20,959 nucleotides of DNA from Stenotrophomonas sp. Marseille-Q4652 (GTDB lineage: Bacteria > Pseudomonadota > Gammaproteobacteria > Xanthomonadales > Xanthomonadaceae). The stretch is taken from assembly GCF_916618915.1 (NCBI RefSeq), contig NZ_CAKAKE010000002.1, forward strand, positions 1-20,959, in the 5' to 3' direction. The translations under genes were made by a program, and so were the position numbers. The notes below the pieces were generated by a model. The model saw only the letters and a program-made list of their open reading frames with translations. It was not told the origin of the DNA and did not search any database. Shown here in pieces: positions 277 to 17,275 of the stretch (the stretch's first letter is position 1; each line of letters opens with the position of its first letter).

Positions 277-786
277 ATGTTTCGATATGTCAAAACCAAG
301 GTAGCCAACGGGGCCAAGCGCTCCACCCGCTACGCCGGCAAGGTCGTGAACGCGGCCGAGATTGCCGAGACCGCCAGCGCCACCACCGGAATGCTTCGCC
401 AGTTCTGGGAAAGCCGCAAAGGCACCGACCGGCGCGAGACTTTCCAGAACGCCGTGGAGCGCCGCGGCCTGACCCAAGACGACTTGCGGGCTCTCCACCG
501 CCAGCACTCCATCGTTGCGCACCTGACATTTTTCTTTGCCTGCGTAGCCATCGCCATGGGCGCTTGGCACTACGCCCAGGGCTCCCTGCCAGGCGCCCTG
601 GCTGGTTTCGGTGCGCTGATGGCCCTTCTGGGCTACTTCCTCCGCGCCGGCTTCCGCGCGGCGCAGATTGAGCGCCGCGACCTGTTCCCGTTCCAAGACT
701 ACCTGCGCTCTCCCCTGAGCTGGCTTCCGGCGCTGTCGCTGCCGGCCCAGGGGAAGGCTGTGACCAAGGCGGTGCGCCATGACTGA
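277..786 (+). CDS. traX: IcmV/TraX-like type IVB secretion protein
   Basis: A 169-residue protein with a soluble N-terminal half and two adjacent transmembrane helices (about residues 80-100 and 104-126), followed by a short basic/aromatic tail. This layout, the LTQDDLRALHRQHS region before the first helix, the QIERRDLFPF stretch after the second, and the position directly in front of a dotA-like gene match Legionella IcmV (about 150 residues) and the TraX protein of IncI plasmids such as R64. IcmV acts with DotA in the inner membrane of Dot/Icm-type systems. The stop overlaps the start of the DotA/TraY gene by 8 bases, so the two are translationally coupled. The family call rests on remembered IcmV sequence plus synteny; the upstream spacing of 33 bases suggests one operon with the preceding gene. 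Confidence 0.65.
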   Translation: MFRYVKTKVANGAKRSTRYAGKVVNAAEIAETASATTGMLRQFWESRKGTDRRETFQNAVERRGLTQDDLRALHRQHSIVAHLTFFFACVAIAMGAWHYAQGSLPGALAGFGALMALLGYFLRAGFRAAQIERRDLFPFQDYLRSPLSWLPALSLPAQGKAVTKAVRHD

Positions 787-3463
787 GTCCACCCGGCTGG
801 CGCGTATGCCGCGCCCCACACTCAAAGAGCGCGTGGAATACCGCGACACCGCCGACGCGGTGAGCGAGTTCCGCGAGACTGCAGAAGCCATCGGCCGCAC
901 CCCGGCCGATTGCCTGCGCGAAGCCGCCCGCGACTGGACGGCTAAAACCAAAGCCGTTTACGGCTTGGCGCCCTACCTGCTGTTGCTGGTGAGCCTGTTC
1001 CTGCCAGGCCTGGCCATGGCCGGCCCGTTCGACGTGCCGGACAGTGACCTGTCTAAAAAGCTGTTCCTGGACAACCTCTTTCCCGAGCTGACCGGCGGCG
1101 GCGGCGGCAGCCCGCTGGGCGCAGCCGTGGGCATGTTCAACACCGCCGTGCTCATCGTGGCCGGGATCCTGGTGATGTATACGCTCATCGCCGGCACGCT
1201 CTCGACCGCGCACGACGGCGAAATGCTGGGCAAGAAGTGGTCCAGCCTGTGGCTGCCCATCCGCACCACCCTGGGCGCGGCCGCCATTCTGCCAACCATG
1301 GGCGGCTTTAGCGTCATCCAGGCCATCGTGATTTGGCTGGCCCTCCAGGGCGTTGGCATTGCCAACTCCGTCTGGGGCGCCTACGCCGACAACCCGCTCC
1401 AGGGCGCGGCCTACGTGCCGCCGTCCGAAGTCCGCCAGCTTGAGAAAATTGCCGGGCAAATGTTCCTGCAGCACGTGTGCCGGGCTGGCCTGGAACAAGC
1501 CGAAGCCAATACTGACATGAGCCAGCTTCAAGGCGTTGGCCTGCGCTCCTGGAAGGCCACCCGCCAGACCACGGACAACGACAACGTGATGGCCTGGAAC
1601 TACGTGACCAGCTGGGGCTTTTCCTGCGGCACGATGATGATTCACAAGCCCAAGCGCGGGGACTTTGCTACCGACGCGAGCAGCGCGGCGGCCCGCAACC
1701 TGGTAGACCCATACGCCATTGCTCAAGGCGTGTTTCCAGCCCACGTGTCGGCGCTCACGGCCATGGACGCGCGCATGTCAGCCCTGGCTGACCGGTTTGT
1801 GGCGGCTCCCACCATGGGCGCCGGCGATGACACGGTGAACGGGCCCGCGGTGACGGCTGAAATCAAAGCCGCGGCCGTGGCCTACTCGCAGACCATCAAG
1901 CAGGCGTCGCAGTCCCAGGCCAACGTCCTCCAGTCCGACGACTTCAAGCAAGCGCTGCAGCAAGACGGCTGGGTCATGGCCGGCGCGTTCTACACCAAGC
2001 TGGCCCACGCCTTGGACTCGATCTCTTCGGCCACCAGCCGGTCGGCCCAGCTGTCAGTCCAGGGCGAGTTCCCGAAGGCACTCCCCGACGTCCAACTGCG
2101 CTGGGCCGAAGCCAGCGCGGCGCTGCGTGATGTGACCAGCCCAGGCGCCCACACCGTGGGCAGCGAGCAGGGCGGCAACATCATGGACAAGCTGCTGACC
2201 GTGGTGCTAGACAGTGCCCGCGACGTGGATCCGGAAGGCATGTCTGGCCATCCCCTGATTGCCACCAAGAACACCGGCGAGTCCATGAAGTCCTGGGGCA
2301 TTGGTATCTACACCGTGGGCGCCGTGGTGGTGGCTGCTGCCGGCGTTATCGCCGGTAACGTCGCCGGCAAAGGCCTGGGCACTGACACCGCCTTACTGGC
2401 CCTGACTGACATTCTTTCCACTCCGCTGTTTGCCCTGGTCGGCCCCCTGATTTTGATGGGCGCCGTGCTCTCCAGCGTCATCCCCATGCTGCCTTTCATT
2501 CTCTGGGTGGGCGTGGTCCTGGGCTGGATTGTCCTGGTGACCGAGGCCGTCATTGCCGCGCCGCTCTGGGCCGTGGCCCACATGGCCCCGGACGGTGACG
2601 GCGTGGTGGGCCGCGGTGGCCAGGGTTACATGCTGGTGCTGTCGTTGACCCTGCGCCCGGCGCTCATGGTCCTGGGTCTGATTTGTGCCATCGCCATCCT
2701 GGTCCCCGTCGGCGAATGGCTCAACTCCACCTTTGCTCACGTGTTCCGCCTGAACGTCATGCAGGACAACCCGAGCTGGGGCGGCTTCATCAACATCCTG
2801 ATGGGCCTGGCCATCTACTCCACGCTGATGGTCACGGTGATGACCAAGATTTTCAGCCTCATCCACGTCATTCCCGACAACGTGCTGCGCTGGATTGGCG
2901 GCGGGGTGGACAACATGCTGGGCCAGAACGCTCAACCCCTGGCCGGTGCGGTTGAAGGCCAGTCCACCAACCTCCTGGGCGCCGGTGTGGCCGCCGGTGC
3001 GGTCACCAACCAGCTGGGTAACAAGGTGGCGGCGGCAGCCCGTGAGCACGCTGGAAGACAGAGGCGCGAGGAAGAGAACAACGAGCGTCAGAACAGCAAG
3101 CTGGTGGAAGACTTGGAGCAGTCCCGAGAAAAGGCCTGGGAGGCCAACGACCGGGCCGAAGAGCGCGGATCCGTCTCTAACTATGAGCGCGCTTTCGACG
3201 CCGAGGCACGCCACGGCCAGGCCGCTTTGAACGTGGCCGGCAGGATGGACGCAGGCTTTGGCCAGCGTCTGGCCCAGGCTCGCCAAGCCGACGCCGGCAC
3301 CGGCGGCACCCAGGCCCAAGATGAGCTGATTGCCTCAGAAGCCAGCACCGCCCCGGACGCCAAGCCCTACCAGCAGGCGCTGGCCGAGGCCCAGCGTGCG
3401 TTTGCCAAGGCTGAGCGCAACGCCCAGGCCGCCAAGAAGGCAGCCGAGCCGGAGGATGAGTAA
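779..3463 (+). CDS. traY: DotA/TraY family type IVB conjugation protein
   Basis: An 894-residue polytopic inner-membrane protein of the DotA/TraY family, a large component of type IVB secretion and IncI-type conjugation. A hydrophobic segment at residues 64-82 ending in AMA|GPFD looks like a signal sequence or first helix. It is preceded by about 60 charged residues that DotA signal sequences normally lack. Further helices lie at about 113-138, 160-200 and a dense cluster at about 505-720, including the PLFALVGPLILMGAVL, LPFILWVGVVLGWIVL and LRPALMVLGLICAIAIL stretches and an IFSLIHVIPDNVLRWIGG region typical of the family. The last 150 residues are strongly charged, predicted coiled coil and cytoplasmic. 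The start overlaps the TraX-like gene; the stop overlaps the next start by one base (TAATG). The family call is confident. Confidence 0.9.
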   Translation: MTESTRLARMPRPTLKERVEYRDTADAVSEFRETAEAIGRTPADCLREAARDWTAKTKAVYGLAPYLLLLVSLFLPGLAMAGPFDVPDSDLSKKLFLDNLFPELTGGGGGSPLGAAVGMFNTAVLIVAGILVMYTLIAGTLSTAHDGEMLGKKWSSLWLPIRTTLGAAAILPTMGGFSVIQAIVIWLALQGVGIANSVWGAYADNPLQGAAYVPPSEVRQLEKIAGQMFLQHVCRAGLEQAEANTDMSQLQGVGLRSWKATRQTTDNDNVMAWNYVTSWGFSCGTMMIHKPKRGDFATDASSAAARNLVDPYAIAQGVFPAHVSALTAMDARMSALADRFVAAPTMGAGDDTVNGPAVTAEIKAAAVAYSQTIKQASQSQANVLQSDDFKQALQQDGWVMAGAFYTKLAHALDSISSATSRSAQLSVQGEFPKALPDVQLRWAEASAALRDVTSPGAHTVGSEQGGNIMDKLLTVVLDSARDVDPEGMSGHPLIATKNTGESMKSWGIGIYTVGAVVVAAAGVIAGNVAGKGLGTDTALLALTDILSTPLFALVGPLILMGAVLSSVIPMLPFILWVGVVLGWIVLVTEAVIAAPLWAVAHMAPDGDGVVGRGGQGYMLVLSLTLRPALMVLGLICAIAILVPVGEWLNSTFAHVFRLNVMQDNPSWGGFINILMGLAIYSTLMVTVMTKIFSLIHVIPDNVLRWIGGGVDNMLGQNAQPLAGAVEGQSTNLLGAGVAAGAVTNQLGNKVAAAAREHAGRQRREEENNERQNSKLVEDLEQSREKAWEANDRAEERGSVSNYERAFDAEARHGQAALNVAGRMDAGFGQRLAQARQADAGTGGTQAQDELIASEASTAPDAKPYQQALAEAQRAFAKAERNAQAAKKAAEPEDE

Positions 3464-3795
3464 TGGCCTTTGAAATCACTCCCCGCCACGAACAGGAGCG
3501 CCTGCGGGCGCTCTACCAAAAGCACGTTGACCAGGTGATGGAACACCTGGCCAAGAACGGGCCCCCGCAGGTGCGGGCGGCACTGGAGAACTGGCACCCT
3601 ACCGCCTACGCGATTGAAGCCGAGGCCAGGCGTTTGAAAGCCGCCCGCCAGGAGGCCGAGGCCCTGCCGGGCCAGTGCGAAGCCATGGCCGAGAAGCGGG
3701 CCAGGGAGCGGGAGCGCCTGGAGCGTCGGGCGTATGCCCAGCGCGAGCGCGAGCGCTTCACGGCAGAACAGGACCGGAGGAACCGGAATGTATGA
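3463..3795 (+). CDS. charged coiled-coil protein of unknown function
   Basis: A 110-residue soluble protein rich in Glu, Arg and Ala. From about residue 50 to the end it reads as one continuous helix or coiled coil (repeated AEARRLKAAR, EKRARERERLERRA patterns). There is no signal peptide and no membrane segment. The start codon shares one base with the DotA/TraY stop, and the 3' end overlaps the following start by 8 bases, so it is part of the coupled transfer operon. In R64 the gene after traY is the entry-exclusion gene excA; position alone suggests a comparable or accessory role, but I see no sequence support for exclusion. Its charged helix could pair with the C-terminal coiled coil of the upstream DotA/TraY protein (inference). 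Confidence 0.7.
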   Translation: MAFEITPRHEQERLRALYQKHVDQVMEHLAKNGPPQVRAALENWHPTAYAIEAEARRLKAARQEAEALPGQCEAMAEKRARERERLERRAYAQRERERFTAEQDRRNRNV

Positions 3796-4117
3796 TATTA
3801 TATCATATAATATGAAAGGGATGGAGCAGCTACCGCCACCGCCCGGCGTCGAAACCCTGGCCAGGCTTCGCCGGTCCGAGGGCTACCAGTGCGTTCTGGA
3901 AGCCTTGGAGCCCCGCCCGCGTCCTGCGGAGCTGGCCCAGGCCCTGGAGGCTGCCGCTCTTTATGGGAACGCCCCCGGTGTGCTGGCTCTGCTGGAAGCC
4001 GGCGTGCCGGCCACGGCCGACGCCCTGGAGGCGGCCCTTCGCAGTGTCCACCCCACGGGCTTGGCGTCGGCGCGTTTGCTGTTCGACGCCGGCGCCCGCC
4101 TCCACCGGCTTCATTGA
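3788..4117 (+). CDS. short ankyrin-like protein
   Basis: A 109-residue product starting at the ATG at 3788, chosen because GGAGG at 3776-3780 lies 7 bases upstream. Residues 2-9 (YDIISYNM) are encoded by an A/T-rich palindromic block quite unlike the rest of the gene. From about residue 40 the sequence shows two degenerate ankyrin-type helix pairs (LEAAALYGNAPGVLALLEAG and LEAALRSVHPTGLASARLLF, followed by DAGARL). No signal peptide is seen. The gene overlaps the preceding coiled-coil gene by 8 bases and is the last gene before an intrinsic terminator. Ankyrin repeats mediate protein-protein contacts, so a role as adaptor or modulator is possible; the partner is unknown. Confidence 0.7.
   Translation: MYDIISYNMKGMEQLPPPPGVETLARLRRSEGYQCVLEALEPRPRPAELAQALEAAALYGNAPGVLALLEAGVPATADALEAALRSVHPTGLASARLLFDAGARLHRLH
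3791..3815. repeat. A/T-rich palindromic element a (family of six)
   Basis: A 25-base block made almost only of A and T, within GC-rich DNA. It contains two overlapping inverted repeats: TATGATA-TTA-TATCATA (3791-3807) and TCATA-TAA-TATGA (3803-3815). It lies inside codons 2-10 of the ankyrin-like gene, directly after its start codon. It shares the ATGATATTAT and CATATAATAT words with the promoter blocks at 4231, 4879, 9650 and 13998 and the block at 4496. No TTGAC box precedes this copy. Confidence 0.75.
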
Positions 4118-4220: not shown

Positions 4221-4248
4221 TTGACGGCAATAGCATATAATATAATAT
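4221..4248 (+). promoter_or_regulatory. A/T-block promoter b
   Basis: TTGACG (4221-4226), a 16-base spacer and TAATAT (4243-4248) form a sigma70-type promoter in front of the 66-residue gene. The A/T block runs to about 4255 and ends in ATATGATATTA, the word shared with elements a, c and e. The predicted transcription start is near 4255, giving a leader of about 20 bases before the start codon at 4275. Confidence 0.7.
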
Positions 4249-4274
4249 GATATTACCACAACGGAGACACCCCC

Positions 4275-4845: not shown

Positions 4846-4847
4846 CC

Positions 4848-4874
4848 CAAGCCCCCACTGCGCTAGGGGGCTTG
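4848..4874 (+). terminator. terminator hairpin fused to promoter c
   Basis: A perfect 9-bp inverted repeat (CAAGCCCCC at 4848-4856, GGGGGCTTG at 4866-4874) with the loop ACTGCGCTA, starting two bases after the stop of the 122-residue gene. There is no long T run; the downstream arm runs directly into the -35 box (TTGACA at 4872). A near-identical hairpin occurs at 13968-13994. Confidence 0.7.
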
Positions 4875-4899
4875 ACACTATAATAGCATATGATATTAT
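4872..4899 (+). promoter_or_regulatory. A/T-block promoter c of the parA operon
   Basis: TTGACA (4872-4877), a 16-base A/T-rich spacer and TATTAT (4894-4899). This is a strong sigma70-type promoter about 45 bases upstream of the 42-residue gene that heads the parA operon. It aligns without gaps to promoter e at 13992. The -35 box overlaps the end of the preceding terminator stem, so termination of the upstream operon and initiation of this one are physically merged. Confidence 0.75.
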
Positions 4900-4942
4900 A
4901 TTTCCACCCTGGAAACCCCAGGCTTGAACCGAGAGAACCGCC

Positions 4943-5801: not shown

Positions 5802-6134
5802 ATGACCACCAAGAAGACCCCCATGAGCTGGGCTCAGAAGCTGGAAGGCCTGGCCCCCACCATCGAAAAAGTGGCCTTTCAGCCCACCGCTGCCGCTTTC
5901 GACCACAAGCTCCACCCGGCTGCCCATGGCGCGCCCCGCGCCGTGGTGAAAGCCAAGGTTCGCGCCGCCCAGGGTGCCCAGGGCGTGCTGGTGCGCGTGC
6001 CCACCGCCACCCTGGAGCGCTTGAAGGCCCACACCGTGGGCAGCCATACGGTTTCCATCGTGGCGCTGGCCGATTGGGCCTTGGACTACCTGGAGCAGAC
6101 CGGGCAGGCCATTGAAACCAATGAGAAGGAGTGA
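5802..6134 (+). CDS. putative ParA partner, ribbon-helix-helix-like DNA-binding protein
   Basis: A 110-residue basic protein placed directly after parA with the ribosome-binding site AAGGAA. The last 45 residues fit a ribbon-helix-helix pattern: a short strand (VLVRVP, about 66-71), helix A (TATLERLKAHTVG) and helix B (VSIVALADWALDYLEQ). The same region is recognisably related to the RHH protein encoded at 13645-13914 (shared VALxDWALxxLE). In type Ib partition systems such a protein binds the centromere and represses the operon. The N-terminal 60 residues are basic and probably flexible. Candidate binding sites are the hairpin and CCCAC sites directly downstream (6128-6213). The RHH call is by pattern, not by search. 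Confidence 0.65.
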   Translation: MTTKKTPMSWAQKLEGLAPTIEKVAFQPTAAAFDHKLHPAAHGAPRAVVKAKVRAAQGAQGVLVRVPTATLERLKAHTVGSHTVSIVALADWALDYLEQTGQAIETNEKE

Positions 6135-9620: not shown

Positions 9621-9635
9621 TCAGCCCTGGAGCCC

Positions 9636-9664
9636 TTGACAGAACAAATAATAGAATATAATAT
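9636..9664 (+). promoter_or_regulatory. A/T-block promoter d of the DUF927 operon
   Basis: TTGACA (9636-9641), a 17-base spacer and TAATAT (9659-9664), inside an A/T block that ends at about 9668. It belongs to the same promoter family as b, c and e. Predicted start of transcription is about 20 bases before the start codon at 9692. Confidence 0.7.
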
Positions 9665-9691
9665 AATAGCATTACAGCCAGGAGAGTGGAC

Positions 9692-11950
9692 ATGGCGGCA
9701 CCCATGACCCCAAAAAACAGCAAGAGCCAGCATCCTGTGGCCCAGACCTTGGAAGCCTTGGAAGCCGAAGGCTGGGATCTGGACCTCCCCGCGAAAGGCG
9801 ACGAGCTGGAGGCGCCGGAGGGCGACCCGCTGGCACCCGGCGGAAGCCAGGTTTTCTACGCAGGCGGCGCCATGGGCGAAATCACCGCCCGCGGCTTCTG
9901 GAAGATGGACAGGGAGGGCGCTTACTACTGCGTCCACCCGTTGCCGTTGTGGCCAGCGGAAATCATTGAGGCTGCCACGCAAGACGGCACTACCGCGGTC
10001 TATGTGCGTATGCGCTTCGCGCGCGTCCATGGCGGCACCGGTGAGTTGAAGTTGCCCCTGGGTGAGCTGGGTGGCTTTGGCCGCAAGGACCACCCGCTGG
10101 TGCGCGGTGGCTGGAAGCCGCCGGCGTCAAAGCGTGCCGGCGCCGTCGAGGAAATCCTGACCTACGCGCTCAAGGAGCTTTCAGAGCTGGGAATGCTACC
10201 CACGCGCAAGGGCTACGAGATTGCCGGATGGGTGGAGCATGACAGGCACGTGCGCCCAGGCTCTGATCTTTACGTGGGCCAGGCCTTGGGCTCCACCGTC
10301 ACCGGCGGCAGCCGTGAGGTCTGGGCCAAGACCATGACCGAGCTGATGAACGATAGCGGCATTCTCGCTTTCACCATCGCTTGCGCCCTGGGTTCGCTGT
10401 TCCGCGGCGTGGTGCCGTTGCCCCACTCAACCAGCCACATCGTCAACCTGACCGGCGCGCCTTCGCGCGGCAAAACCACCATCCTCAAGGTGATTTCCTC
10501 GCTGGCCGGCGTGCCGGACAAGCCCGGTTTCCTGGATGGGGCCAGCACGGCGCGCGGCCTGGAGAACCGGCTGGCTGCGAGCAATCACGGCTGGATGCTG
10601 GTCGATGAGTTCGACCAGCTGCTGATGAAAGACGCCGACGGTGGCGCCACCACCTTGATGTTTGTCTCCAACGGCGGCGGGCGTGAGAAGGCCACCCAGA
10701 CCGGTGGCAGTGTCCAAGGCGCTACCTGGAGCGTGACCGTGGTGGGCACCGGCAACAAGTCACTGCTGGACCTGGCGGCCAGCGCGAAGAAGGGCGAGGC
10801 GCTGACCACCCGCATTTTCGAGCTGGACATCCTGGACGCAGACTTGACCACGTTCACCGAAGTGTCGGCGTTGCCGTCGCGCCTCCACAAGCTTTCAGAA
10901 AACTACGGCTGGGGCTATCCCACCGCGGTGGAAGCCATCGCCAGCCGGCGCGGCGAATGGATTCAACTGTTCTACGAGATTGACGAAGAACAGCGCAGCA
11001 ACGAGCGCCTGGCGCCGATTTTCCAGGACCAAGCGCGGCTGCTGGCCTTCTTTGAGCTGGCCCTGATGGGCGCCGAGCTTGCCAAGGAAGTCATTTCTCC
11101 CGCCGCCGGCGCCGCCGCCCTGGAAGCGGTGGGCATTGCCATGGCCCGCTACGAGCAAGAGCCCGAAAAAGGGATTACCCAGTCGCTTCACCGGCAGCAC
11201 AAGCTGCTGCTGGACCTCCACGAGTGGCTTTCCCTCAATGCGGGCCGGTTTGTCTGGAAAGGCTACGCATGGAAAGAACCGGCGCGTATGCGCTTTGACA
11301 CTGCCGGCGACGCTTACGACGAGGAAGCCAGCCGCGGCATTACCGAGGGCGATCGTCAGGCCGAGCAGGCCCGCTATTTGACCTCCTGCGCCCTGGGCGG
11401 CAGTCGTGGGGCCTTGGGCCAGGTGAAGCAGGTGCGCCCAATGAAGGATGACTTGGATTTTGAGGGCGAGCTGGTGCTGGGCGCGGCAGCGCTGGAAGAG
11501 CTGGAGCGCAACGCGAAGATTGACCGCGCCGAGCTGACGACCGCCGCCAAGGCGTTCGGCTTGCTCCAGACCAACGAGAAGGACCGCGACGCTTACAAGC
11601 TGTCCGGCGCCTTGGCTCGCCAGCTGGGCGGTGGCTCCCGTGGTTTGAAGCTGCTGCTGCGCAAGCCTGACCTGACCGAGCAGATCCGCACCTTGGCGGC
11701 AATGCCCGCCAAAGCTGCCTGGCGCCCGGCGCGCTGGGCCGATGACACCGGCATGGCCGACATGTGGGCCAGCCAGGACACGGCCGCCCTGGAAGCCCTG
11801 GCCCAGGCCAACGCCGAGCAGGTGGCCCAGGGTTACGTCCAGCACGACGACGACGACCAGGAGCTTTATATTCCGGGCTTCGATGACCTCGACGCCCAGG
11901 GCCAGGCCCTGCCTGGGTCAGTGGAAGCCCTGTTTGGAGGCAAACCATGA
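9692..11950 (+). CDS. DUF927-type ATPase (helicase-like)
   Basis: A 752-residue protein. ATG 9692 was preferred over GTG 9686 because AGGAG (9680-9684) lies 7 bases from the ATG but only one from the GTG. The central part matches the DUF927 family, described as helicase-like or inactivated helicase proteins of phages and mobile elements. Motifs are Walker A GAPSRGKTT (about 255-263), Walker B WMLVDEFD (about 301-308, with the DE pair) and a following SNGGGREKATQTGG region. The N-terminal 180 residues carry a separate domain (strand-rich, VYVRMRFARVHGGTGELKLP). The C-terminal 200 residues are helical and acidic at the end. These proteins are usually linked to plasmid or phage replication or primase modules. 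The following gene overlaps by 4 bases (ATGA). Confidence 0.85.
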   Translation: MAAPMTPKNSKSQHPVAQTLEALEAEGWDLDLPAKGDELEAPEGDPLAPGGSQVFYAGGAMGEITARGFWKMDREGAYYCVHPLPLWPAEIIEAATQDGTTAVYVRMRFARVHGGTGELKLPLGELGGFGRKDHPLVRGGWKPPASKRAGAVEEILTYALKELSELGMLPTRKGYEIAGWVEHDRHVRPGSDLYVGQALGSTVTGGSREVWAKTMTELMNDSGILAFTIACALGSLFRGVVPLPHSTSHIVNLTGAPSRGKTTILKVISSLAGVPDKPGFLDGASTARGLENRLAASNHGWMLVDEFDQLLMKDADGGATTLMFVSNGGGREKATQTGGSVQGATWSVTVVGTGNKSLLDLAASAKKGEALTTRIFELDILDADLTTFTEVSALPSRLHKLSENYGWGYPTAVEAIASRRGEWIQLFYEIDEEQRSNERLAPIFQDQARLLAFFELALMGAELAKEVISPAAGAAALEAVGIAMARYEQEPEKGITQSLHRQHKLLLDLHEWLSLNAGRFVWKGYAWKEPARMRFDTAGDAYDEEASRGITEGDRQAEQARYLTSCALGGSRGALGQVKQVRPMKDDLDFEGELVLGAAALEELERNAKIDRAELTTAAKAFGLLQTNEKDRDAYKLSGALARQLGGGSRGLKLLLRKPDLTEQIRTLAAMPAKAAWRPARWADDTGMADMWASQDTAALEALAQANAEQVAQGYVQHDDDDQELYIPGFDDLDAQGQALPGSVEALFGGKP

Positions 11951-12344: not shown

Positions 12345-13049
12345 TCAACGCCGGCCGGGTGCCGCCGAACGGTGTGAGGTGAGGGCTCCAGTCTTCGGAC
12401 TGGGGCCCTTTTTTTCAGTGCCGGCCACCAGCTTCCCGGTCACCACCTCGCCGGTGGCGGTCCTGACTTTCACCTGGCCACCGGAGGCGGTGAGCGTTCC
12501 CAGCCGCTTCTCCAGGGCCTTGCGGTTCATCACGCGGTTGACCAAGGCGGGGCGCTTGGCCCTGGGTGAAACGGACACTTTGCCGCGCATTTCCACCTTG
12601 ACCTTGCTGGCCAGCTGCGGGGCCACTTCCGCGAGCAAATCCGGGTGCTTGTCCAGCAGCTTGAACAAGTTGAACACCGCCGGCAGCGGTTCGGCCTCGC
12701 CGCGCTCGTAGCGGCTAAAGGCGTTGTGACCGCCGCCGGTGAGCAGTGCCGCCGCGGCCTGGGTCAGGCCCAGGGCTTCGCGGATCCGCTTCAACTCGTC
12801 GGCGCGGGCCTTGCGCACCTTCGCCACCAGGGCGTTGGAAACCGACGCCCAACGGGCGGTGCTGCCGGCGTCGGCAAAGGTTTCCTCGCACACGCGGCAC
12901 CGCTCGCCGGTCATCGTCAGCTCTTCGCTGAAATCGCCAACGCGCACGGTTTCCAGGCCCTTGTAGGGCTCTAGCGCCTGGGCGCTTCCGCACACCGGGC
13001 ACTGGCCAACGGCCAGGGCGACGCCGTGGTTCTCGTTGTGCTGTGTCAT
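12345..13049 (-). CDS. mqsA: MqsA-type antitoxin with C-terminal extension
   Basis: A 234-residue protein of the MqsA (YgiT) antitoxin family. The N-terminal zinc-binding domain has the CxxC pairs C17/C20 (CPVCG) and C51/C54 (CRVCEE). The C-terminal HTH_3 (Xre-like) domain spans about 84-140, with LGLTQAAAALLTGGG and NAFSRYERGEAEP, then LFKLLDKHPDLL, where E. coli MqsA nearly ends (131 residues). About 90 further residues follow (basic, then KVRTATGEVVTGKLVAG and a Gly/Pro/Ser tail) that E. coli MqsA does not have. It neutralises MqsR and represses the operon. The start overlaps the mqsR stop by 4 bases. The last 25 codons overlap the terminator of the opposite operon, so part of the tail may be fortuitous read-through rather than selected sequence. 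Confidence 0.92.
   Translation of the reverse strand: MTQHNENHGVALAVGQCPVCGSAQALEPYKGLETVRVGDFSEELTMTGERCRVCEETFADAGSTARWASVSNALVAKVRKARADELKRIREALGLTQAAAALLTGGGHNAFSRYERGEAEPLPAVFNLFKLLDKHPDLLAEVAPQLASKVKVEMRGKVSVSPRAKRPALVNRVMNRKALEKRLGTLTASGGQVKVRTATGEVVTGKLVAGTEKKGPSPKTGALTSHRSAAPGRR
12383..12415 (+). terminator. strong intrinsic terminator of the DUF927 operon
   Basis: An 11-bp stem with one G-T pair (12383-12393 with 12398-12408), a stable TTCG tetraloop and seven T (12409-12415). On the opposite strand these bases encode part of the C-terminus of MqsA (KKGPSPKTGA region), so the terminator is embedded in a convergent coding sequence. Confidence 0.92.
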
Positions 13050-13381
13050 GTGTCGTTTTCCTCCAGGCGTTTGAACGAAATCACCACGCGGGGGGTGGTG
13101 TTGGCGTCGGGCGGCTCAATCAGGGTGAACTTGACGTAAGCCGCGCCGGCGGGGGTGTCGCAGTGATAGACGTCCTGCCAGATCCGATGGTCCGCGTGGG
13201 TGGTCATCGACTTGTAGCAATCTGAGCGCTCCAGCGCCGCGATGGCCGCCAGGGCTTCGTCGGTGGTCAGCTTCATTTCTTCCACGCCCTTGCGGGCGCT
13301 ACCGGTGAAGCAGCCCACCCCGTGGATGGCCACAACTTCTTTGACCTTGGCCAGGGGGTAATGCGCGGACTTTTTTTCCAT
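13046..13381 (-). CDS. mqsR: MqsR-family mRNA interferase toxin
   Basis: A 111-residue RelE-fold endoribonuclease of the MqsR family; the E. coli enzyme cleaves mRNA at GCU/GCA. The diagnostic stretch SDCYKSMTTHADHRIWQDVY (53-72) is nearly the same as E. coli MqsR. The residues reported as important there (K56, Q68, Y81, K96) correspond to K57, Q69, Y82 and K104, so the toxin looks intact. It precedes mqsA, as in E. coli (toxin first, the reverse of most toxin-antitoxin operons). The ATG at 13381 has only a weak purine-rich site upstream. The promoter at 13394-13421 carries an MqsA-box-like palindrome, implying autorepression by MqsA. On a plasmid it likely acts as a stability or addiction module. 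Confidence 0.95.
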   Translation of the reverse strand: MEKKSAHYPLAKVKEVVAIHGVGCFTGSARKGVEEMKLTTDEALAAIAALERSDCYKSMTTHADHRIWQDVYHCDTPAGAAYVKFTLIEPPDANTTPRVVISFKRLEENDT

Positions 13382-13393
13382 GTCTCGGGTTCC

Positions 13394-13421
13394 ATTCTAC
13401 CCTTAAAGGGTAACGCGGCAA
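13394..13421 (-). promoter_or_regulatory. mqsRA promoter with MqsA-type palindrome
   Basis: Reading on the minus strand, TTGCCG (13421-13416), a 16-base spacer and TAGAAT (13399-13394) form the promoter. The spacer contains the palindrome ACCCT-TAA-AGGGT (13399-13411, extending to 13398-13412). E. coli MqsA binds AACCT-N3/4-AGGTT; the same architecture with one base changed per arm is seen here, between the -35 and -10 boxes. Confidence 0.75.
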
Positions 13422-13427
13422 GAGGGG

Positions 13428-13455
13428 TTGACAGTCAAGTCTAGACTGCTAGGTT
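13428..13455 (+). promoter_or_regulatory. plus-strand promoter with TCTAGAC operator O1
   Basis: TTGACA (13428-13433), a 16-base spacer and TAGGTT (13450-13455). The spacer is filled by the palindrome AGTCTAGACT (13438-13447), flanked by a second inverted pair CAGTC/GACTG (13432 and 13444). No protein gene follows on this strand before the terminator at 13535, so the promoter would make a short RNA. Confidence 0.55.
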
Positions 13456-13461
13456 CAAAGG

Positions 13462-13556
13462 GGCCGGGGGTGCTCCAACCTCCCTCCCCCGGCTTCCTTG
13501 GTGGGTATGTCGTTGCGTTGCAGTAGTAGGAGAGCCCCGCCCCTGGCGGGGTTTTC
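13462..13556 (+). ncRNA. candidate regulated small RNA (about 95 nt)
   Basis: This is the stretch between a TTGACA/TAGGTT promoter and an intrinsic terminator on the plus strand. Its 5' end forms a perfect 8-bp hairpin (GCCGGGGG at 13463-13470, CCCCCGGC at 13486-13493). The 15-base C-rich loop contains CCTCC, the complement of the Shine-Dalgarno core. A linker of about 40 bases follows, then the terminator hairpin. No convincing reading frame is present. The promoter carries operator O1, related to the sites in front of the neighbouring RHH gene and the JAB-like gene. C-rich loop sRNAs of this form act on ribosome-binding sites in other bacteria; the targets here are unknown. Both ends are inferred. 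Confidence 0.45.
13535..13555 (+). terminator. intrinsic terminator of the candidate sRNA
   Basis: A perfect 7-bp GC stem (CCCCGCC at 13535-13541, GGCGGGG at 13545-13551) with a CCT loop, then TTTT and TCTTT. It points rightward, although no protein gene lies upstream on that strand, which is the main reason to suspect a small RNA. Confidence 0.8.
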
Positions 13557-13563
13557 TCTTTGG

Positions 13564-13649
13564 GCCGGCAGGACGCCGGCTTTCCCCGACCTGGCCCGCG
13601 TCGTGCGGGCCCGTCTTTCCAGCCAAGCGGGTAGGGGCCGGCCCCTACC
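13564..13649. repeat. cluster of three further inverted repeats
   Basis: Three consecutive GC-rich inverted repeats: GCCGGC-N5-GCCGGC (13564-13580), GGCCCGC-N5-GCGGGCC (13593-13611) and the perfect 20-bp palindrome 13630-13649 (GGTAGGGGCC and its complement). They follow the sRNA terminator and lead into the 3' end of the RHH gene on the minus strand. They may act as its terminator or mRNA-stabilising structure, or as part of a plasmid origin. Confidence 0.6.
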
Positions 13650-13914
13650 GCGCCTTTTCTTCAACCACCAGCGTCTGGTCTCTGGCCTCCAGCTGGGCCA
13701 GGGCCCAATCCATCAACGCGACCATGGCCGGGCCAGGGGCGCCGTTCACGCTGTTTTTGACGCGCTCGGAGAGCTCGACCGGGAGCAGGAAAAACGCCTG
13801 TTTTGAGTAGGTCACCCCGTCGCGTTCGCGGGGGATGGCTGCCCGCATGACCACCCGCGTGCCGTCCACGGCCGGCTGGGTGCGGTGTTCAAAGAGGGGA
13901 GAGGGCGTAGGCAT
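13645..13914 (-). CDS. ribbon-helix-helix-like DNA-binding protein
   Basis: An 89-residue protein. Residues 43-80 fit a ribbon-helix-helix domain: strand AFFLLPV, helix A (ELSERVKNSVNG) and helix B (PAMVALMDWALAQLEARD). This region is a clear relative of the C-terminus of the protein encoded after parA (5802-6134), with VALxDWALxxLE in common and the same spacing. The N-terminal 40 residues are basic with a VVMRAAIPRER stretch. The upstream region contains the operator-like sequence AGTCTGGACTAGA (13927-13939), and related sites lie in front of the candidate sRNA and the JAB-like gene. It is therefore a good candidate for the regulator of this cluster and of its own gene (inference). The stop lies within the 20-bp palindrome at 13630-13649. 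Confidence 0.7.
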   Translation of the reverse strand: MPTPSPLFEHRTQPAVDGTRVVMRAAIPRERDGVTYSKQAFFLLPVELSERVKNSVNGAPGPAMVALMDWALAQLEARDQTLVVEEKAR

Positions 13915-13923
13915 TAGGGCGGT

Positions 13924-13940
13924 TCAAGTCTGGACTAGAA
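13924..13940. promoter_or_regulatory. TCTAGAC-type operator O2, upstream of the RHH gene
   Basis: TCAAGTCTGGACTAGAA, an imperfect palindrome that begins with the same TCAAGTCT as O1 (13435-13442) and ends with CTGGACTAGA, also found in O3 (14092-14101). It lies about 10 bases upstream of the RHH start codon, where a bound protein would block transcription or initiation. Confidence 0.55.
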
Positions 13941-13967
13941 GCCCAAAAGCATACTGCACCGGGCAAC

Positions 13968-13994
13968 CAAGCCCCCGCTGCGCTAGGGGGCTTG
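13968..13994 (+). terminator. second copy of the terminator hairpin, fused to promoter e
   Basis: CAAGCCCCC (13968-13976) and GGGGGCTTG (13986-13994) with loop GCTGCGCTA; it differs from the copy at 4848-4874 by one loop base. No plus-strand gene ends here, so its presence is best explained by duplication of a terminator-promoter cassette. It may insulate promoter e from upstream transcription. Confidence 0.65.
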
Positions 13995-14019
13995 ACTATA
14001 TTATATTATATGATATTAT
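13992..14019 (+). promoter_or_regulatory. A/T-block promoter e of the JAB-like gene
   Basis: TTGACT (13992-13997), a 16-base pure A/T/G spacer and TATTAT (14014-14019). It aligns base for base with promoter c, including ATATGATATTAT at the same distance from the -35 box. The predicted leader of about 90 bases to ATG 14119 contains a GGTGG/CCACC inverted repeat, a run of seven T (14060-14066 area) and operator O3, so initiation and elongation may both be controlled. Confidence 0.7.
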
Positions 14020-14074
14020 GTAGTTGACGGTGGAGGAAACCCCACCCAAGGACCACTCTTTTTTTCACTCCATC

Positions 14075-14104
14075 GGTCCAGTCTAGACTGGACTGGACTA
14101 GACC
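14075..14104. promoter_or_regulatory. TCTAGAC-type double operator O3, upstream of the JAB-like gene
   Basis: The perfect 14-bp palindrome CCAGTCTAGACTGG (14078-14091) is followed by GACTGGACTAGACC, so O3 combines an O1-like and an O2-like half, with GGTC/GACC at the outer edges. It ends 14 bases before ATG 14119, covering the leader of the gene. Confidence 0.7.
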
Positions 14105-14118
14105 AAAGGAAAGCCGCT

Positions 14119-14688
14119 ATGAACCGTATCGCTCTGACCATCGCCACCCTCCTGTTTGCCACCGTCGCCCAGGCCGCCGATTACGGCCCGGTTGAGAAGG
14201 TGAAGATTCCGGGCGTGGGCCCGGTGGACTACCAGCACGTTCTGACTGAGACCAGCCAGCCGGGCGAAACCATGGACGCTTTCGCGGCTCGCCTGTCGCC
14301 GCGCCTGCGGGCTTTCAGCGATGAAACCGGCTTCGAGGCCTGCGGCGTGATTGCCACCGACGGGGAGCGCTTCGGCGCTGTCATCGGCTCCAACCGTTCG
14401 CACATCGCTTGTGCCAATTTCAGCTCCAAGGTGCCGGAGGGTATGCGTCCCACCCTCCAGACGATCCACAGCCACGGCAAAGAGCGCGGCTTCAACGCGA
14501 ACCGCAACGACCTGGCGCTCAACGGTCAGGTGTTCGCTGGCCACCGCGGCCTGCGCGGTGTGGCAGGTCAGAACCTGCGCGAGTTCTCGGAGATGGACTA
14601 CGACGGCGGCGCGGGCTACCTGGCCACGCCGGAAGGCACCAAGCACCAGGCCGGGCATGGCACCGTTCGCACGGTCCACGCCCACTAA
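14119..14688 (+). CDS. secreted JAB/MPN-like putative metallopeptidase
   Basis: A 189-residue protein with an N-terminal signal peptide (MNRIALTIATLLFATVAQAA, cleavage after residue 19 or 20), so it is periplasmic or secreted. The mature part shows the ingredients of a JAB/MPN (JAMM) site: E73 in GFEACGVI, the H117-S-H119 pair in LQTIHSHG, and S157-x-x-D160 in FSEMD followed by GGAGYLATPEG, as in secreted JAB-type families such as DUF4329. The gap between HSH and SxxD is 37 residues, longer than the usual 7-10, so there is an insertion or the match is fortuitous. C76 and C98 could form a disulfide. AAAGGA at 14105-14110 is the ribosome-binding site. It has its own promoter e and operator O3, and faces the pilin gene 18 bases from its stop. 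Confidence 0.65.
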   Translation: MNRIALTIATLLFATVAQAADYGPVEKVKIPGVGPVDYQHVLTETSQPGETMDAFAARLSPRLRAFSDETGFEACGVIATDGERFGAVIGSNRSHIACANFSSKVPEGMRPTLQTIHSHGKERGFNANRNDLALNGQVFAGHRGLRGVAGQNLREFSEMDYDGGAGYLATPEGTKHQAGHGTVRTVHAH

Positions 14689-14696
14689 ACCGGTGG

Positions 14697-14719
14697 GCCG
14701 ACGCCGTTAGGGCGTCGGC
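14697..14719. terminator. bidirectional hairpin between convergent genes
   Basis: GCCGACGCC (14697-14705) and GGCGTCGGC (14711-14719), a perfect 9-bp stem with loop GTTAG, between the convergent JAB-like and pilin genes and overlapping the pilin stop codon. There is no T run on either side, so termination efficiency is uncertain. Confidence 0.6.
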
Positions 14720-17166
14720 AGCACGTCGCCGGGGAACTGCGGGTAGGGCGTTCCAGGCGTATCCCACGACAGGGCGCAAGGATTGCCCGGCAGAACCGGC
14801 TTCCACGGGCCTCCACCGGGGAAATCCCGATACCAGGCCGTGTAACCGCCAATCGGCGCGTGCGAGACCAGCAACTGGTATTGGACTTCATACGAGCGCA
14901 CGCACTTGGTCCCGGCAAAGCCGGCGACATAGCCCAAGCCGTCGTGCCACCAGCCCACGTTGCCCACCACGGCGGTGGCGCAGGTGCTGGAGGTGGTGGC
15001 CCAGCCGGTCACCGGCGTCCATTCACTCCAGGCTGACCAATCGCCCCACGAATAAGCACCCGTCGGCGCCGGGCAGTAAGCCGTGCGCGTCTGGGTCCGC
15101 TGTTCGTTGCGGGTCTGGGTAATGCCGCCGACCTGACCGACCGGACAGCCCAAGGTCTGAGTGGCCACGCGGTTCTCCACGTTCGTCTGCGTGCTGGGGT
15201 TGGGCAGGGCGCACGCCGGCGCCGGCGGCGGTGCCGGGGTGGCGCAGGTGTTGGACGTGGTGGTCCAACCGCCGGTCGCCGTCCAGGCACTCCAAGCACT
15301 CCAGTTGCCCCAGGTGTAGGAACCAGTCGGAGCCGGGCACGTGGCCGTGCGCGTCTGCGTGCGTTGTTCCGGCCGGCTCTGGATGATCGAACCAGACTGA
15401 CCAGCCGGGCAACCCAGGGTCTGGGTGGCCACACGGTTCTCCACGTTGGTTTGCGTGCTTGGGTTGGGCAGGGTGCAGTTGGTGGCGCAGGTGTTGGACG
15501 TGGTGGTCCAAGCCGTCACACCCGTCCATGCGGACCAGCTTCCCCAGCTTCCCCAGGTGTAGGAACCGGTCGCGGCCGGGCAGGTTGCGGTGCGCGTCTG
15601 GGTGCGCTGCTCGGTGCGCGTCTGGGTGATGGCTCCCGATTGGCCCGAGGGGCAAGCCAGGGTCTGGGTGCCGGTGCGGTTTTCAGTGTTGGTCTGCGTG
15701 CTCGGGTTGGGCAGGGAGCAAGCGGCCAAGCAATCACCGTAGTTGACGAAGGTGCCACCGGTGCCGTCCCAGGTCCACGGAGTAGCCACGGCCGCACCGG
15801 TCGGAGCCGGGCAGGACCAGGATCGGGTTTCACCCGTGACCCAGTTGCTGCTCGTGCCCACCCATCCTGCAGGGCAGGCGGCGGTGTAGAACAACTGGCG
15901 CCATTCCGGAGGCGGAGCCACGCACTGCGGGGCACAGGTGCTGCTGTAGTTGCGGGTGTTTCCCGTGTTGGTCCAGCTGCTCCAGGAACCATAGGTCGGG
16001 CCGGGCAGGCTGCGGGTTCCCACCGGGCAGTTGTAGGTCACCGAACGGGTGCGCGATTGCTCATACTGCCAAGTGGTCACCCCCAACTGGCCCGCAGGGC
16101 AGGCGCCCGAAGCGTTGACCCACTGGGTGCCGCTGTCCGTGGACGGAGCCGGGCAAGAAGCGCAGGTGTTGGTGGTATCCGTCCAGGCGCCGGCCTGGGG
16201 GGCTTCCCACGCTTCATAGTTGCCGCCGATTTCACCGCACCACCAGCGCCGCTCTTGGTTCGTAAGGCCCCAGGTGCCTGCCGGGCAGGTGGCCACGCTG
16301 CGGTTTTCAGTGGGCGGGATGACGCAAGCGGCCACCGAGGAAACCGGCGACGAGGGCGCAGGCACCGCCGGGGCCGGCGGCGTGTTCGGGCTCACCGGAG
16401 TGGGAGCAGGCGGCAGCGCCGGGCTCACGGTCGCAGGCGGCGCCATCGGCGCGCTGCTGACCGGTGCGACGGGAGCCGCACCGCCCACGGGCCCAACCGG
16501 GCCCACCGGCGTGCCCACGGGCGCGGAGGTTGGAGCCGTGACCGTGGGCACCGCCGGTGGAAGCGCAAGGGGCGGGGCTGCCACTGCCGTGCCAGCCACC
16601 AGGCCCGAGTAGAAAACAAAGCCCATGCGGCCGCTGCCGCGCTCGCAAGCGTCGCCGGCGGCGGCAATGTCCAGCTGGCCCTCGCTGGCCATCACGCTCA
16701 CGTTGTCCACGCGAACGTCCCAGGCGCGGGAAGCCATCGAGGCGGCCAGGCCAGCGCACGCGCTGGCAGGCACCTGGGTCTCCACCAGGAAAGCGTCGCC
16801 ACCGGTGTTCACTGTGGCCGGATGGAAGCTCACCGGGTTGCCCCAGGCGTTGACCAGGCCAGAGCCGGCCCGCTTGTAAGCGTCGCCGGCCAGGTCATCG
16901 CGCCGCACCAGGGCAGTGGTCAGGTTGTTGTAGTTGCCGAGCATTCCGATGGAGCGCTCGATGTTCAACGCGCTTTGCTCCAGCGCGTCGGTTTCGTTGC
17001 GCACAGCGGCCTTTGCGTCGGTGCTCTTGAAAGTCACCATTGCCACCATGCCGAGGACCGAAACAACGCCCAGGGCAAGCATGGTTTCCAAGAGGCCAAA
17101 GCCTTGGGCGCGGTCAATGGCCACGGCCAGGCGTGAGGGCTTAAAACGGGTGTGGGGGTGTGTCAT
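14707..17166 (-). CDS. type IV prepilin fused to thrombospondin-1-like repeats (pilus adhesin)
   Basis: An 819-residue protein starting at ATG 17166, chosen over ATG 17202 because TTGGAG precedes it by 10 bases. Residues 1-22 form a basic leader ending in QG; the mature protein begins FGLLETMLALGVVSVLGM, with Glu at +5, the prepilin peptidase signature. About 180 residues of pilin-like domain follow (NAWGNPVSFHP, then a Cys-flanked VETQVPASACAGL region as in PilS-type type IVb pilins). Next come a Pro/Ala/Val-rich linker and six Cys-rich modules with WGxWSxWSxWT and EQRTQTRTAxCPA patterns like thrombospondin type 1 repeats. The last three modules are nearly identical. A distinct C-terminal domain with three Cys ends the protein. 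It resembles PilV-type tip adhesins of IncI pili in layout, but no shufflon or recombinase is visible. It is probably a pilus tip adhesin. Confidence 0.85.
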   Translation of the reverse strand: MTHPHTRFKPSRLAVAIDRAQGFGLLETMLALGVVSVLGMVAMVTFKSTDAKAAVRNETDALEQSALNIERSIGMLGNYNNLTTALVRRDDLAGDAYKRAGSGLVNAWGNPVSFHPATVNTGGDAFLVETQVPASACAGLAASMASRAWDVRVDNVSVMASEGQLDIAAAGDACERGSGRMGFVFYSGLVAGTAVAAPPLALPPAVPTVTAPTSAPVGTPVGPVGPVGGAAPVAPVSSAPMAPPATVSPALPPAPTPVSPNTPPAPAVPAPSSPVSSVAACVIPPTENRSVATCPAGTWGLTNQERRWWCGEIGGNYEAWEAPQAGAWTDTTNTCASCPAPSTDSGTQWVNASGACPAGQLGVTTWQYEQSRTRSVTYNCPVGTRSLPGPTYGSWSSWTNTGNTRNYSSTCAPQCVAPPPEWRQLFYTAACPAGWVGTSSNWVTGETRSWSCPAPTGAAVATPWTWDGTGGTFVNYGDCLAACSLPNPSTQTNTENRTGTQTLACPSGQSGAITQTRTEQRTQTRTATCPAATGSYTWGSWGSWSAWTGVTAWTTTSNTCATNCTLPNPSTQTNVENRVATQTLGCPAGQSGSIIQSRPEQRTQTRTATCPAPTGSYTWGNWSAWSAWTATGGWTTTSNTCATPAPPPAPACALPNPSTQTNVENRVATQTLGCPVGQVGGITQTRNEQRTQTRTAYCPAPTGAYSWGDWSAWSEWTPVTGWATTSSTCATAVVGNVGWWHDGLGYVAGFAGTKCVRSYEVQYQLLVSHAPIGGYTAWYRDFPGGGPWKPVLPGNPCALSWDTPGTPYPQFPGDVLPTP
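14974..15720 (-). repeat. three tandem ~240-bp repeats inside the pilin gene
   Basis: Three in-frame direct repeats at about 14974-15213, 15240-15477 and 15481-15720, each encoding about 80 residues from a Cys-x-Leu-Pro-Asn-Pro-Ser-Thr-Gln start to a Thr-Cys-Ala-Thr end. The two left-most copies are separated by a short Pro/Ala-rich insert. High nucleotide identity suggests recent duplication or recombination between modules. Confidence 0.85.
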
Positions 17167-17275
17167 GGGTAAAAAGCTCCAACCTTTTCCTACCCCCACC
17201 ATGCGACAGGATTAGAAAAGCGCAAGCCCCTGAAAGTGCCTAAAAACAAGGGGTTTTTTAGTTTTTCCTGTTTGG

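Follow-up and report, generated by a model that had tools for sequence, protein, structure and literature searches.

FinP is a plasmid hairpin RNA that is encoded antisense to its target, traJ. Xanthomonas is related to Pseudoxanthomonas, the genus of strain Root630, whose plasmid is compared below with the locus analysed here. The sX13 RNA of Xanthomonas is described as a 115-nt molecule with three C-rich stem-loops that pairs with G-rich motifs near starts, acts without Hfq and has a large regulon that includes virulence genes (PMC3771888). The DNA under study is a stretch of 20,959 nt (the window; positions 1-20959 of contig C2 in a Stenotrophomonas genome of two contigs and 3.35 Mb), whose plasmid-like character is apparent from the parA, DUF927, ArdC and mqsRA proteins and the DotA/TraY protein that it encodes. 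Between mqsR and a putative regulator gene lies a unit that resembles sX13, as the latter is described, in that it would encode a structured RNA of about 100 nt whose C-rich apical loop is complementary to a G-rich translation start, here by computation. It differs in having one C/U-rich loop and a terminator instead of three stable C-rich stem-loops, and in being plasmid-borne, under a local operator and with one predicted plasmid target. We regard sX13 as the closest working model, from whose members the plasmid RNA would be set apart by its loop count.

The promoter, operator, hairpin and terminator of the unit are conserved in two plasmids, and the complementarity of its loop to a pilin-like gene exceeds that of shuffled loops when both plasmids are combined. 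From these observations we put forward, as an evenly balanced proposition, that the unit makes a repressor-gated, trans-acting plasmid sRNA of about 95 nt, which would repress the pilin-like gene by sX13-like loop pairing.

The unit is conserved in two plasmids

An earlier note on this DNA had proposed a candidate operator-controlled noncoding unit, composed of a promoter TTGACA-N16-TAGGTT with a palindrome in its spacer, a perfect 8-bp hairpin with a C-rich, CCUCC-containing loop near the RNA start, and a terminator downstream. All of these parts are present in the window, the promoter with a TGC extended -10 in addition, and promoter, operator, 5' hairpin and terminator recur in Root630.

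13428..13455, plus strand: sRNA promoter, with TTGACA (13428-13433), a 16-nt spacer, the TGC extended -10 and TAGGTT (13450-13455)
13438..13447, unstranded: palindromic operator AGTCTAGACT in the promoter spacer, at an identical position in Root630
13462..13557, plus strand: predicted small RNA of about 95 nt, its start placed from the -10 and its end from the terminator
13460..13496, plus strand: 5' hairpin with 8 Watson-Crick pairs (11 bp with G-U), matched in Root630 by a stem of altered sequence
13471..13485, plus strand: C-rich loop UGCUCCAACCUCCCU, which holds CCTCC (13479-13483) and the proposed seed GCUCCAACCU (13472-13481)
13529..13557, plus strand: intrinsic terminator of 13 pairs including G-U, with 23 of the 23 bases of GGAGAGCCCCGCCCCTGGCGGGG identical in Root630

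The promoter stands out from the composition of the DNA. When both strands were scanned, TTGACA-N15-18-TAnnnT was found four times in the window, always on the plus strand, whereas 200 dinucleotide shuffles averaged 0.03 and never exceeded 1. The form that has TG ahead of the -10 occurs twice, and not at all in the shuffles, for which the spacer range was one base wider. All four TTGACA-anchored matches have counterparts in Root630, which has one more. The sRNA promoter is missing from a standard promoter scan of 12400-14600 because TAGGTT fits the -10 consensus of that scan at only three of six positions.

The searches turned up a single related plasmid, contig NZ_LMGY01000009.1 of Pseudoxanthomonas sp. 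Root630. Its gene order follows that of the window, in collinear blocks that are about 66-79% identical, and its unit likewise sits between the regulator gene and mqsR. From TTGACA to TGCTA, 23 of 24 bases are the same. Promoter, operator and terminator are near-identical in the two plasmids, while the stem and loop between them have diverged, the Root630 hairpin being formed at the equivalent place by GUCGGCGGG and CCCGCCGGC around the loop UUUCCUUCCUUU. The perfect 8-bp stem of the window pairs 13463-13470 with 13486-13493 and leaves a 15-nt loop. When nine stacked pairs are compared from the loop outward, five are unchanged, three carry double-sided changes (a Watson-Crick swap in two cases, G-C to U-G in the third), one is changed on a single side and none is broken. 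The structure is thus kept in two of two loci with three of nine pairs altered on both sides, in a comparison of two sequences only. Of the hairpin described in the earlier note, the stem recurs with altered sequence in Root630 and the CCUCC of the loop does not. Conservation of the unit in a plasmid of only about 66-79% identity is the main evidence for the predicted sRNA; the two loci lie on homologous plasmids, and the tests based on them are therefore not independent.

Could these parts form a promoter-operator-terminator cassette that has no RNA function, for instance an insulating or repressor decoy site, and whose hairpin is incidental? We consider this quite improbable. Perfect stems of at least 8 bp are common, with 20 in the window that enclose a loop of 10-20 nt, and the stem length was reached in 504 of 3000 shuffles for Root630 and in 75 of 3000 for the window (45 bases after the -10); the fold z-scores are -3.97 and -1.48, respectively. 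A hairpin by itself is weak evidence in G+C-rich DNA. Against the cassette, however, the stem at the predicted 5' end is kept in both plasmids via double-sided changes, and promoter and terminator are both conserved, although a decoy needs neither.

The unit has its own promoter and intrinsic terminator and shows no conserved reading frame when frames are compared by eye with Root630. It looks noncoding because the frame that starts at ATG 13508 reads through the terminator and has, by eye, no counterpart in Root630; a coding gene was ruled out on these grounds. A leader or attenuator of a downstream gene was ruled out since there is no likely plus-strand gene before 14119. An MqsR decoy was dismissed because the GCU of the window loop, an MqsR site, is missing from the Root630 loop. 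Membership of a known Rfam family was rejected as well: the whole window gave no match at the gathering score, and the nine matches in 13400-13640 are sub-threshold, with E from 0.11 to 4.8.

Operator sites and a putative regulator

The genes and sites around the unit are the following.

12345..13049, minus strand: mqsA antitoxin gene (PF15731, E 8.3e-26)
13046..13381, minus strand: mqsR toxin gene (PF15723, E 6.3e-27), divergent neighbour of the sRNA unit
13398..13412, unstranded: separate palindrome TACCCTTAAAGGGTA at the mqsR promoter, possibly an MqsA-type site and distinct from the sRNA operator
13645..13914, minus strand: 89-aa putative ribbon-helix-helix (RHH) regulator, proposed operator binder, 86% identical in Root630
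13927..13936, unstranded: second operator-like site AGTCTGGACT, which precedes the start of the putative regulator by 12 bases, with the orthologous AGTCCAGACT in Root630
14080..14089, unstranded: third operator AGTCTAGACT, located ahead of the 14119 gene, with the orthologous AGTCTATACT in Root630
14119..14688, plus strand: gene for a small exported-looking protein behind the third operator, without a family match

The 3.35-Mb genome contains only two exact copies of AGTCTAGACT, which lie within 652 bp of DNA at the sRNA locus. Matches with up to two mismatches number five in the window alone, against 2.1 expected. The pattern AGT[CA][TC][AG][GT]ACT, which was drawn from sites already seen, finds three sites per plasmid, confined to a 650-bp block around the 89-aa gene. 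In both plasmids one of these sites belongs to the sRNA promoter, another closely precedes the start of the 89-aa gene, and the last is found ahead of the 14119 gene.

The 89-aa protein is most likely the natural candidate binder of the AGTCTAGACT sites, and its sequence pattern makes it plausible that it is an RHH protein. As for the RHH regulator that the earlier note placed next to the unit, the neighbour is present and has an RHH-like pattern, and Pfam, NCBIfam and Foldseek did not confirm the class. Neither Pfam nor NCBIfam gave a match, and a PDB sequence relative of the RHH kind was not found. The AlphaFold2 model has a mean pLDDT of 57, a confidence so low that the Foldseek search made with it, which returned no match at E≤0.001, carries no weight. 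We propose that this protein, as the most likely candidate, binds AGTCTAGACT between the -35 and the -10 and would thereby keep the sRNA off; once repression lifts, the RNA of about 95 nt would be made. Through the other two sites, both its own gene and the 14119 gene would come under the control of this protein.

MqsA is reported to bind AACCT-N3-AGGTT (PMC4894380). The mqsR palindrome TACCCTTAAAGGGTA, of which Root630 has two similar copies, resembles an MqsA-type site in kind without being identical to it, and differs from AGTCTAGACT. Given that mqsR carries a different palindrome of its own, MqsA is an unlikely owner of the AGTCTAGACT sites and was rejected as owner of the sRNA operator. 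The MqsRA operon resembles the unit in having a palindrome at its promoter, which adjoins the unit and is divergent to it, and differs in the identity of that palindrome; no link between the sRNA and the MqsRA toxin pair was found.

The genes on both sides of the unit are on the minus strand, to which the unit is antisense. Its main rival interpretation, which we judge unlikely, is a cis-antisense RNA. Minus-strand transcripts that extend from the regulator gene towards mqsRA would contain its full complement, and by pairing with them the RNA would either regulate this read-through or be sponged by it, in the manner of FinP or CopA. Between 13645 and 13400, a simple scan (12400-14600) did not detect a terminator on the minus strand, and an antisense pair, being self-complementary, leaves stem and loop free to change fast while the ends are kept. 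The sRNA would be encoded on the strand opposite to a read-through RNA from the regulator to mqsR, and is not encoded opposite the regulatory region of the pilin-like gene. The read-through is hypothetical, however, and the antisense stretch has neither a start site nor a coding sequence. Moreover, a promoter-like site and a palindrome belong to mqsR itself, and a cis-antisense role does not account for the fact that the loops match the pilin start in the two plasmids.

Predicted pairing of the loop with the pilin-like gene

The predicted target of the proposed trans-acting sRNA comprises three features.

14707..17166, minus strand: pilin-like gene, whose product has a prepilin-type N-terminus (N_methyl, a weak match with E 0.018 and 15.1 bits, the cut-off being 21.2) and repeats in its C-terminal part
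17167..17195, minus strand: translation initiation region of the pilin-like gene, which can form a hairpin around the target site
17176..17185, minus strand: proposed target AGGUUGGAGC over the ribosome-binding site, a 10-bp perfect complement of the sRNA loop

We envisage that the 5' hairpin presents its C/U-rich loop to the pilin-like gene, which lies at a distance of 3.7 kb and has a purine-rich ribosome-binding site that is partly enclosed in a hairpin. The computed pairing of loop and site would block translation of the gene. Since the start region can fold into a hairpin around the target, the contact would be loop-loop. The sequence AAGGTTGGAGnTTTTTACCCATG of the start region is common to both plasmids and, by eye, its flanks are more diverged. 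FinP/traJ offers a parallel in that a plasmid hairpin RNA would pair through its loop with a ribosome-binding site while stem and loop vary between relatives; unlike FinP, which is antisense to its target, the plasmid RNA would reach the distant pilin-like gene in trans.

Target scoring covered the translation starts of the plasmid genes, which were hand-placed in both plasmids, several of those in Root630 being approximate. In the window, GCUCCAACCU and AGGUUGGAGC form the best contiguous helix among 24 starts (10 bp, -21.3 kcal/mol), ahead of the next best (-15.9) by 5.4 kcal/mol, and 67 of 1000 shuffled window loops equalled the pilin match at some start. When interior loops are allowed in the window alone, the gene at position 7 (-24.2) beats the pilin-like gene (-22.4). 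The Root630 loop pairs at the pilin site as UUUCC-UU-CCUUU with AAAGG-UU-GGAGA (10 of 12 bases, -11.1 kcal/mol); shuffled loops were as good there in 3 of 2000 mononucleotide and 22 of 2000 dinucleotide shuffles. With interior loops this site ranks second of 22 starts, and by contiguous helix it falls outside the eight best of 24 listed. Such single-plasmid tests are weaker than the sum over both plasmids. Summed over 22 ortholog pairs (the 24 genes minus those at 7 and 4513, whose Root630 starts could not be placed), the pilin-like gene comes first at -33.5, followed by -27.7. In none of 2000 mononucleotide and none of 2000 dinucleotide shuffles of the loops did any gene equal this score, and with three other start-region sizes 1 of 3000 shuffles was as good.

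Is this signal merely that of a ribosome-binding site? The generic anti-Shine-Dalgarno role assigned to the loop in the earlier note is not conserved, because the Root630 loop has no CCUCC. The 12-nt anti-Shine-Dalgarno tail of 16S rRNA ranks the pilin-like gene only 8th and 4th, but with the sRNA loops this gene takes first place among the 22 pairs; the pilin signal is therefore not mere Shine-Dalgarno likeness. The GGAGG at 3776-3780, offered earlier as an example target, did not emerge as such: it lies within the scored region of a gene whose start was taken as 3812, and this gene ranked fourth of 22 pairs and has its best contiguous helix elsewhere. A specific pilin target would appear to fit better than a generic anti-Shine-Dalgarno role.

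The loop is C/U-rich in both plasmids, and many mRNAs are described as targets of sX13 through their G-rich motifs (PMC3771888). One may instead picture a trans-acting sRNA with chromosomal or many targets, a general binder of G-rich or Shine-Dalgarno sequences for which the pilin match is incidental, but we give this little credence. CCUCC is not conserved, and the pilin-like gene stands out over shuffled loops. In the sole look at the chromosome, a pattern count, 12-base complement-like sites GGGAGGTTGGAG with up to one mismatch numbered 9 against 11 for the reversed control in the own genome and 9 against 14 in Root630, and thus were not in excess over the control in either whole genome.

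When loops and sites are exchanged between plasmids, the window loop scores -20.5 with the Root630 site and the Root630 loop -10.7 with the window site (own site, -11.1). The loops pair with the site of either plasmid, which therefore indicates a kept target and not a co-change of loop and target. Separately, a 12-bp match to the loop lies on the plus strand near 16501-16545, antisense to the pilin-like gene, and internal repeats of about 74% identity are found within that gene at 14974-15723.

What would a repressor-gated, trans-acting sRNA imply? If it exists, a small plasmid controls a surface pilin by its own repressor-gated RNA, and mobile elements, too, have RNAs of the sX13 type, which block start sites with C-rich loops. 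The pair of plasmids would then be a ready test of an sRNA loop that changes while its target is kept. A broader picture, which we offer tentatively and with the balance somewhat against it, is that of a family of small Xanthomonadaceae plasmids with a compact surface switch: a single plasmid repressor would act on its own gene, on that of a small exported protein and on a trans-acting sRNA, which would silence the pilin-like protein of the plasmid by kissing the loop that holds the ribosome-binding site, the pairing being kept as the hairpin diverges fast. Among the papers listed in literature searches, none dealt with a plasmid-encoded sRNA that acts on a pilin; one concerns a different plasmid-encoded sRNA, linked to persistence (PMC11980398).

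Distribution and neighbourhood of the unit

The unit is rare in the genomes searched. A DNA search of 101 relatives gave five with a match, namely the own locus and four with matches of 33-39 nt in the terminator region, three of which (L008-L010) are terminator-like hairpins; Rfam applied to L007-L011 returned one tRNA. A scan of genome contigs found one locus. The regulator protein was detected in 3 of 395 genomes of the family (the own genome, one taken to be Root630 and, at 31%, genome G197) and in 1 of 397 genomes of the order, both sets being samples of larger groups. The DUF927 protein is found in 2 of the 395 family genomes, and the operator pattern in 1 of 91 genomes of the own genus and 1 of 38 of the Root630 genus. 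Querying the plasmid collection with 13000-14120 gave 16 records, all in the mqsR region only. The regulator had no match among plasmids and phages. Viral contigs gave no relative, the 39 stretches inspected included, and the single viral-contig hit shares only a 21-nt blastn match with the window (E 0.24). As proteins, regulator homologs named Stenotrophomonas occur in 25 contigs (P0004) and 11 contigs (P0005). In G197 (G197:C86:12000-20000, L021), a pilin-like gene, a small exported protein and a regulator-like gene have a similar arrangement, and the operator and TTGA-type promoter patterns were not matched there.

Several further features of the replicon were observed. Enterobacterial plasmids of about 30 kb (e.g. 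NZ_CP039278.1) encode distant relatives of the DotA/TraY and DUF927 proteins (window 779-3463 and 9686-11950), hinting at a wider plasmid family. Directly after parA, 5802-6134 encodes a second protein akin to the 89-aa regulator (29% identity in alignment), which is possibly a partition partner of parA. The 14119-14688 protein, for which Pfam and NCBIfam gave no family match, has a JAMM-like HSH motif in both the window and the Root630 copies.

AT-rich, promoter-like stretches recur before plasmid genes at 3784-3826, 4226-4266, 4872-4909, 9635-9681 and 13989-14032. They consist of TATAATATAATAT-like runs, several of them behind TTGAC, and Root630 has six such stretches. Positions 4847-4899 and 13967-14019 are 88.7% identical and have in common a hairpin AAGCCCCC..GGGGGCTTGAC; it has the look of a terminator, and its second arm continues into the next -35. 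Finally, the interval 13570-13649, from the regulator stop to the sRNA terminator, is well kept in Root630 and bears hairpins, among them a 20-bp perfect palindrome at 13630-13649; it is perhaps the 3' end of the regulator mRNA.
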